Below, one piece after another: positions 25,067 to 26,066 of a DNA stretch of 35,937 bases. Position 1 is the first letter of the stretch, and every line of letters begins with the position of its first letter. The stretch is from Rhodospirillaceae bacterium Spongia-Bin9 (GTDB lineage Bacteria > Pseudomonadota > Alphaproteobacteria > Bin65). The notes beneath the pieces were generated by a model that was given only the letters and a program-made list of their open reading frames with translations, ran no database searches and was not told the origin of the DNA. The translations under genes and the position numbers were made by a program. The stretch covers positions 1 through 35,937 of the forward strand of contig FZLR01000026.1 in NCBI GenBank assembly GCA_900197615.1, in the 5' to 3' direction.

Positions 25067-25500
25067 GGGCTAGCGCAGGCCCCGCGGGCCGCGCCGCCGG
25101 CGCCCCGCCCGCCTGTCTGCGGCCATGCCGCCGAAACATACGCCTGCAAATCCGGCCATGGGCGGCTGTCGCTCCTCGAATACGCATGTTCAGGGCGAGC
25201 CCGATCCTGCGGCGCAGTCCGGACCTTCTGCAAGAACCGCGCAACCTTAGCCGGCGCAGCGCGCCATGCAAGCGCGTTCGCGTCCGGCCCCGGGGAGGCC
25301 GCCGATCCGCAAAGGCGGCCCGGAGCGGCGAAATTTTTCACACACGATGCAATGACCGGCGCTTACAGGAACATTTTCTCTATACCGTGGTTCTCAAAAC
25401 CGCTCCGGTCGAAATGACGGGCGGGGGCCGGCGCCCGGCGGAAATGGCTGAAAACCGGCATTGCAGCCGGGGCGGCACGGCAGATGCCGCTGTTCGATCC
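25067..25500. other. Non-coding region upstream of livH
   Basis: No protein gene could be supported. Open frames on both strands are Arg/Pro/Ala-rich without recognisable domains. It may be the long leader of the liv operon if transcription starts at the promoter near 25778; a nearer livH promoter was not recognised. Confidence 0.45.
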
Positions 25501-25536
25501 TGTTAGAAAGACCGGTCTAGATATCGACATTTTTTT

Positions 25537-25745
25537 TCGACATCCTCTCTCCGGGCGGTCCACTGCATGCGGCCCGGATGTCCCGAACGGATGGCAACCG
25601 ACGGGTTGTGCAACCCGGCCGGCCGGCCAGGTCGGTCGCCGCCTTCCAGCGCCGGTCCGGGCGGACCGGCGGCGAAGGGATCGACATTCGGGACATCGGG
25701 AGAGGCGCCCGTGAGCCGCGGCAGGCGCATTTCGGGCGTTGACAG
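25537..25745 (-). ncRNA. Candidate structured RNA or long liv leader with alternative pairing
   Basis: Read on the minus strand, downstream of a sigma70-like promoter, this interval contains nested inverted repeats. An 11-bp perfect long-range stem pairs 25687-25697 with 25577-25587. Inside it are one arm with a 9-bp stem (25651-25670) extended by TCGCCGCC/GGCGGCGA and a second arm with GGGTTG/CAACCC. The 3' half of the long stem (25572-25582) can instead pair with 25539-25556, making two mutually exclusive folds. No conserved motif of 4.5S, tmRNA or RNase P RNA is present. Whether it is a free RNA or an operon leader is unknown; no intrinsic terminator was seen. Confidence 0.35.
25651..25670. 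repeat. Strong 9-bp inverted repeat
   Basis: GCCGGTCCG and CGGACCGGC are separated by two bases, so the real hairpin is an 8-bp stem with a 4-nt loop. It is the apex of one arm of the candidate structured RNA. Confidence 0.6.
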
Positions 25746-25749
25746 GCCC

Positions 25750-25778
25750 GATATAGGGCCAGGGAGCCTGCGTGTCAA
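25750..25778 (-). promoter_or_regulatory. Candidate sigma70-type promoter, minus strand
   Basis: On the minus strand an exact TTGACA (25778-25773) is separated by exactly 17 bp from TATATC (25755-25750). The predicted start is near 25743. It would drive the structured region and perhaps, about 680 nt further, livH. A further AT-rich block with TATAAT on the same strand lies at 25792-25797. Confidence 0.55.
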
Positions 25779-25876
25779 GGAAAAAACATACATTATAGGA
25801 AACATTCTTTTCACAGTTCGAGCGGATCGAGCCGGCCGTCGGCCGCACCGGTCCGCGGCCGGCCGCCGCCGCCGCC

Positions 25877-25906
25877 TTGACACCCGCACGGTGCAATCCA
25901 TAGATA
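25877..25906 (+). promoter_or_regulatory. Candidate promoter of tRNA-Val
   Basis: TTGACA at 25877-25882 is followed after 17-18 bp by ATAGATA, a weak -10, about 90 bp upstream of the tRNA. It is divergent to the minus-strand promoter at 25750-25778. Confidence 0.45.
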
Positions 25907-25991
25907 GCGCCTCCGGCAGGCATCCCGGCCCGCGGCGCGTGCCGGCGGAGGCCGGGGCTCCCGCGCAGCAGGTGCGGCGGGCCGGCCGGAG

Positions 25992-26066
25992 GGGCGCGTA
26001 GCTCAGCGGGAGAGCACTGTCTTCACACGGCAGGGGTCGCTGGTTCGAACCCAGCCGCGCCCACCA
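25992..26066 (+). tRNA. tRNA-Val (anticodon CAC)
   Basis: The 75-nt sequence forms a complete cloverleaf. Acceptor GGGCGCG pairs with CGCGCCC, discriminator A precedes an encoded CCA, the D arm carries GCTCAGCGGGAGAGC, the anticodon stem CTGTC/GGCAG encloses TTCACAC with anticodon CAC, and the T arm is GCTGG-TTCGAAC-CCAGC. It reads GUG valine codons. The antisense strand gives the familiar spurious WARLGSNQRPLP peptide. Confidence 0.96.

Follow-up and report, generated by a model that had tools for sequence, protein, structure and literature searches.

A dispersed repeat with a conserved promoter and a conserved RNA fold upstream of livH in a Rhodospirillaceae bacterium

The interval upstream of livH

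In the window, the whole 35,937-nucleotide stretch of Rhodospirillaceae bacterium Spongia-Bin9 analysed here (contig FZLR01000026.1), positions 25537 to 25778 hold a minus-strand promoter followed by nested inverted repeats, and the next gene on that strand is livH. A sequence-only reading had offered three explanations for this arrangement, namely a liv leader, a free RNA, and the folding noise of GC-rich DNA, and the question raised by the locus is which of these applies. The promoter is present as that reading had described it, with a -35 box TTGACA at 25773-25778 and a -10 box TATATC at 25750-25755 separated by a 17-nt spacer. Upstream of the -35 box, an A/T-rich stretch (25779-25822, minus strand) may represent an UP-like element, and the left flanks of related copies are of similar style. 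A sigma-70 consensus scan of 25200-26000 returned no promoters, since it requires a T as the final -10 base and therefore misses TTGACA-17-TATATC; terminator-like sites were likewise absent from this range. The perfect 11-bp pairing that had been proposed is also exact, with 25577-25587 (GATGTCCCGAA) being the reverse complement of 25687-25697.

When folded as RNA, the minus strand of 25537-25743 reaches -115.3 kcal/mol (z -3.76), a value equalled by none of 200 shuffles. The plus strand of the same interval also folds well (z -2.91, one of 200 shuffles equally low), so that single-sequence folding barely discriminates between the strands. The interval had further been likened to an RNA switch on account of two folds that would exclude each other. 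At minimum energy, the 11-bp stem forms together with the pairing of the part at 25546-25556, nested in a single structure. A truly exclusive 7-bp alternative is permitted by the window, in which GACAUCC (25583-25577) pairs with GGAUGUC (25547-25541); in alignments judged by eye, one of its pairs is lost in the copy of genome G005, and no counterpart was seen in the lineages outside the window and G005. Two conserved, mutually exclusive folds, as expected of a riboswitch, were not found, the main fold alone being conserved. As in the sequence-only reading, no known RNA family was recognised: the interval gave no Rfam match above the gathering threshold, a level at which the window contains two tRNAs only, and the single match in 25400-25850 was at chance level (E 4.2).

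A dispersed repeat with polymorphic insertion sites

What the earlier reading had missed is that this stretch belongs to a dispersed repeat, present in 14-43 copies in six of the seven genomes of the genus. A 351-base query from the window gave 18 matches in its own genome at E <=0.01, itself included, and with a 591-base query against 96 genomes all matches at E <1e-10 were confined to the genus. A sequence-only model of the promoter module (R1), built from 19 copies and run on 11 genomes (G000-G010) with a cut-off of E <=0.001, detected 17 matches in G000, 30 in G001, 23 in G002, 25 in G003, 43 in G004 and 14 in G005. None occurred in G006, of the same genus, or in G007, G009 and G010, of the same family, and G008, also of that family, gave one weak match (E 3e-4). 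An exact pattern, strict enough that diverged copies are missed, was found in 36 stretches of an 84,980-species collection from which records close to the own genome may be absent; all of them came from five metagenome-assembled genomes whose titles name a Rhodospirillaceae or an Alphaproteobacteria bacterium. These genomes are presumably those of sponge symbionts. The exact pattern had no match in viral contigs, pieces of the window had none among plasmids or phages, and the element at locus L094 had none among plasmids. The copies are numerous, short (about 575-650 bp) and devoid of a transposase gene or a conserved open frame, as MITEs are.

Comparison of the region between livH and a tRNA-Val gene has shown that the copy in the window behaves as an insertion. 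The gene named livH encodes a branched-chain amino acid permease (PF02653), and the livH genes of G004 and G002 are 92% and 93% identical to it. In these two genomes livH and tRNA-Val nearly adjoin, with aligned pieces 19 and 8 bp apart, whereas the gap between the same pieces in the window measures 585 bp (against G004) and 542 bp (against G002, up to about 65 bp of which stay unaligned at the junction). In G005, the alignment runs through the whole segment. The inserted segment extends approximately from 25290 to 25865 (minus strand), with ends placed within tens of bases.

These comparisons bear directly on the proposal that the interval regulates the liv operon in cis, as its leader or as a switch. 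In its favour, livH is the next gene on the same strand, about 680 nt away, no terminator-like site was found in 25200-26000, and the same holds in G005. The segment is missing, however, upstream of the livH orthologues of G002 and G004, and in G001 and G003 the structured RNA module lies beside tRNA-Val in the same divergent arrangement, but with a ROS/MUCR gene in place of livH. Neighbouring genes, called with our own rough gene finder and counted over 98 copies, are mostly convergent downstream of the element (58, against 29 co-directional and 11 unassigned). Among the 87 downstream genes called, just two fall into the livH cluster, one in the window and one in G005, and clustering of neighbours revealed no gene family common to the copies, so that the linkage to one gene or pathway in relatives that marks a riboswitch or cis-leader was not found. 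We consider a liv leader scarcely plausible. Read-through into livH is conceivable given that no terminator-like site was found, and any effect on livH would be local and incidental to the insertion in the window. A livH-like gene was also seen upstream of copies L076 and L083.

The tRNA-Val-linked modules of G001 and G003 do not group with the window copy, and either this site has been used more than once or copies have replaced one another there. In an unrooted tree of one gene, G004 stands beside G000 and G005, while G001, G002 and G003 fall together (support for G001/G002 0.29); under this topology a single ancestral insertion at tRNA-Val requires two losses.

Other loci are polymorphic as well. 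The site of L094 in G001 is occupied in G003 and holds no element in G004 and G005, where the aligned pieces lie 6 and 14 bp apart, respectively; in G002, about 800 bp of unaligned DNA lie there. At a third locus (L073 of G003, L098 of G001), the flanking DNA matches at 92-96% in one orientation and the element, at 84%, in the reverse one, indicating that it was either inverted there or inserted twice. Insertion polymorphism between relatives, a further property of MITEs, is therefore present in this repeat. The element is also in opposite orientation relative to its neighbours at another intergenic site, L072 of G003 and L117 of G004.

The ends of the element differ between genomes. In many G001 and G003 copies, homology spans about 630-660 bp and ends at inverted GGATTCC...CTGCGAAA motifs. 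With up to three mismatches, this terminal inverted repeat (TIR) motif was found on both sides of nine of 20 copies in G001 and five of 20 in G003, and on both sides of none of the copies in G000 (0/14), G005 (0/14), G004 (0/21) and G002 (0/8), a single motif being present at some of these copies. No terminal inverted repeats are recognisable in the window copy, and at the empty sites of the window and L094 loci the flanks are too diverged for a target-site duplication to be read. The motif also flanks separate repeats of about 210-270 bp, some of them apparently within promoter-bearing elements, and hence may not be the element's own end. These separate repeats (L211 and L214, at G001:C32 ~78657-78862 and C33 ~1724-1942, and others) have ends like GGATTCCTCTGCGAAAAGCCGC and inner CCCCCTCTTCAGAGGGGGAGG palindromes, and motif spacing suggests that they lie inside the promoter-bearing element at L059, L080, L081 and L074. 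No transposase was associated with the family, and the one 1.8-kb pair of TIR motifs that was looked at enclosed a terminase-like gene and no transposase. In G001:C33:93886-95295 (L210 887-2296), a gene resembling the terminase small subunit (PF03592) lies between two inverted-repeat motifs, possibly as a phage remnant.

Conserved promoter and RNA structure

Conservation across the family was assessed in an alignment of 99 copies (A6), all of whose loci had been chosen for having a match. Each base of the -35 box occurs in 93-100% of the copies, as does TATAT of the -10 box in 94-100%, with the final C at 78%; spacer bases, the last two excepted, are conserved at 34-84%. At the predicted transcript start, a GTCAACGCCCGAA-N-TGCGCC block is conserved at 89-100% except for N. 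As the copies were recruited by similarity to the promoter and 5' block, these levels are biased upward, a bias that affects the contrast between hexamers and spacer less because both lie in the search model. The 5' RNA (25706-25743, minus strand), with a start predicted near 25743, would form a helix (25738-25733/25711-25706) enclosing a hairpin (25729-25726/25720-25717). With either of two registers allowed, 75 of 99 copies retain all four pairs of this hairpin and 98 of 99 retain three or more; with the partner slid by 1-3 columns, at most seven of 99 have all four.

Two other explanations for the conserved block were tried and rejected. Column 74 of the alignment (window 25730) varies freely between A, G, C and T before a near-invariant TG in CGAA-N-TGCGCC, resembling interchangeable start codons. 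A protein gene starting from this NTG can be set aside, its frame being no more open than the other two (median of 68.5 codons to the first stop, against 73 and 72; 86, 87 and 85 copies). As for an rRNA promoter, a 16S gene was found in only one of seven genomes (G006), and the module was not matched upstream of it.

Further downstream, the middles of the elements differ widely among copies. A palindrome, AGACCGGTCT (module B, 25509-25518), recurs 3' of the promoter in most of them: of the 86 copies with enough downstream DNA, 64 have the motif at a distance of 150-1000 nt from the promoter, and in 35 of the 86 a motif in that range matches the other strand. Copy L057 has no palindrome near its promoter. 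The palindrome is reminiscent of a TetR-type operator. Between the palindrome and livH, at about 25400-25432, the window also contains a short repeat like CCGTCATTTCGACCGGAGC, which recurs near copies L058, L071 and L080.

The structured part of the element is module M, a predicted three-way junction at 25567-25697 (minus strand). Its consensus structure comprises a closing helix (25697-25685/25589-25577) that includes the 11-bp stem, two arms (25678-25668/25653-25642 and 25640-25631/25602-25593) and an end hairpin (25616-25612/25607-25603). Covariance models, the first of which (R2) was built without the G001-G003 places, matched it at eight places in five genomes (two in G000, three in G005 and one each in G001, G002 and G003), with no match in G004 and G006-G010. 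Under stricter filters, a class-wide sample of 142 genomes gave the module in one, its own.

The eight places represent five sequence lineages that are 67-78% identical to one another. From their MAFFT alignment (A5), RNAalifold derived 56 pairs, nine of them with changes on both sides. Paired cells amount to 93.3% of 446, against 91.0% in shuffles (none of 500 as high) and 36-46% when the partners are slid, a score that is favoured by the structure having been derived from the same sequences. Pairing is retained after one-sided change in 42 cells and after two-sided change in 18, and is lost in 30. The measures of covariation gave a mixed outcome. The 18 two-sided cells exceed the shuffle mean of 8.6 (one of 500 as high) and the covariation score of 0.237 was reached by none of 500 shuffles; two of the five measures, the pairs with double change (9, shuffle mean 6.6) and the further pair types (33, shuffle mean 32.4), are unexceptional. 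Uncompensated changes in the pairing arms, which the earlier reading had named as contrary evidence, do occur, some pairs of the 11-bp stem being broken in the G005 counterpart; the closing helix as a whole (13 pairs, 87.5% of cells paired) has four pairs with double changes. Conserved pairing with compensatory change, the mark of a structured noncoding RNA, is present in the module.

On the transcript strand, the consensus fold of module M reaches -60.8, against -37.6 in column shuffles (z -5.0), the lowest of 150 shuffles being -52.7. The opposite strand gives z -3.4, and there the best shuffle (-54.9) lies below the value of -53.9 obtained for the alignment itself; when each lineage is represented by one sequence, z is -5.3 and -4.0, respectively. 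The signal is weaker beyond this subfamily. The first 200 nt have a mean z of -1.2 (91 copies), against -0.7 for the reverse complement and -0.9 for upstream DNA (86). One G001/G003 subfamily has a consensus z of -3.3 (reverse -0.4), and no fold signal was obtained for another subfamily (-0.6) or for the palindrome region (0.0). Chance folding of GC-rich repeat DNA, in which the element would be a DNA-level repeat without RNA function and its promoter a relic, would agree with the good folding of both strands, the opposite-strand consensus, the weak family-wide z and the abundance of inverted repeats (17 of at least 10 nt within 631 bases). It would not account for pairs kept through compensatory change between lineages as diverged as these, for a consensus energy that no column shuffle matched, or for promoter hexamers that persist while most of the spacer drifts, and we regard it as very unlikely. 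Among the three options first offered, a free RNA fits best, given that both the RNA structure and the promoter preceding it are conserved.

A family of multicopy genes for trans-acting small RNAs, spread by duplication and recombination instead of transposition and kept for a function in the cell, would likewise agree with the conservation of promoter and 5' RNA across 99 copies and with module M pairing retained in five lineages. It would also agree with a comparison of 24 neighbour-matched pairs of copies, in which the 75-nt bin beginning at the -35 box has a mean identity of 0.879 (gaps counted against) and the other bins 0.74-0.81. True orthology is questionable for at least two of these pairs (L072/L117 and L073/L098), in which the orientation is reversed with respect to the flanking DNA. 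Between G001 and G003, the two closest species, conservation of the promoter module scarcely exceeds that of the middle, and recent copying may account for part of the conservation. Against such a family stand the empty sites, the opposite orientation at one site, the TIR-bounded copies of G001 and G003, the absence from G006 and the widely differing middles, which together make it doubtful.

The element and known systems

The interval is probably a copy of a MITE-like element, non-autonomous and specific to the genus, that carries a sigma-70-type promoter and a gene for a small structured RNA. Transcription would start near 25743 on the minus strand, pass through the short 5' stem and hairpin, and continue into the three-way-junction domain (about 25697-25577) and then beyond the palindrome. 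The RNA would be the selected product, and a transposase supplied in trans may move, or have moved, the element. In a related and unlikely reading, RNA is the sole cargo of a mobile element whose promoter, 5' hairpin and fold are selected because the RNA aids its spread or control or forms dispersed variant regulators, while the middle is exchangeable and the 5' module and 3' palindrome on either side of it stay fixed.

To our knowledge, promoter-carrying repeats that give rise to small RNAs have been described from few bacteria. Within a limited literature search, the closest known system found is QMITE1 of Coxiella burnetii, a MITE with sigma-70 promoters that gives rise to the small RNAs CbsR3 and CbsR13 (PMC5896051). 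Both QMITE1 (300-400 bp) and the element of the window occur in tens of copies per genome, measure a few hundred bp, carry a sigma-70 promoter and no transposase, and are a source of small RNA, which is a predicted one here. The likeness is one of description and not of sequence comparison. The QMITE1 host belongs to another class of bacteria, and the authors of that study found no relatives of QMITE1 in other genomes (PMC5896051). QMITE1 is described with 21-28-nt TIRs and RNA-seq support (PMC5896051), neither of which the window copy has; the window element, for its part, has a 3' palindrome and an RNA module supported by covariation.

The Correia elements of Neisseria are likewise dispersed MITEs with functional sigma-70-like promoters, for which inversion in place is reported (PMC10969869), as may have happened at the L073/L098 site. 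Their promoters are described as driving neighbouring genes (PMC10969869); here, in contrast, the promoter points into the element and the neighbours are more often convergent. By analogy, the element would work like QMITE1 and the Correia elements, and it partly qualifies as a MITE.

Families of trans-encoded small RNAs, with related genes, are reportedly found within alphaproteobacteria; from these the element differs in its 14-43 copies per genome and its insertion polymorphism, and they were set apart solely through Rfam, which gave no match. The limited literature search found no publication on a sponge-symbiont small RNA or on an alphaproteobacterial MITE RNA. With tens of copies in six related genomes, the family offers matching, polymorphic and inverted sites for comparison. 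Comparing these copies would make it possible to trace how a mobile repeat is converted into RNA genes, and module M constitutes a candidate new RNA family for which an alignment is in hand.
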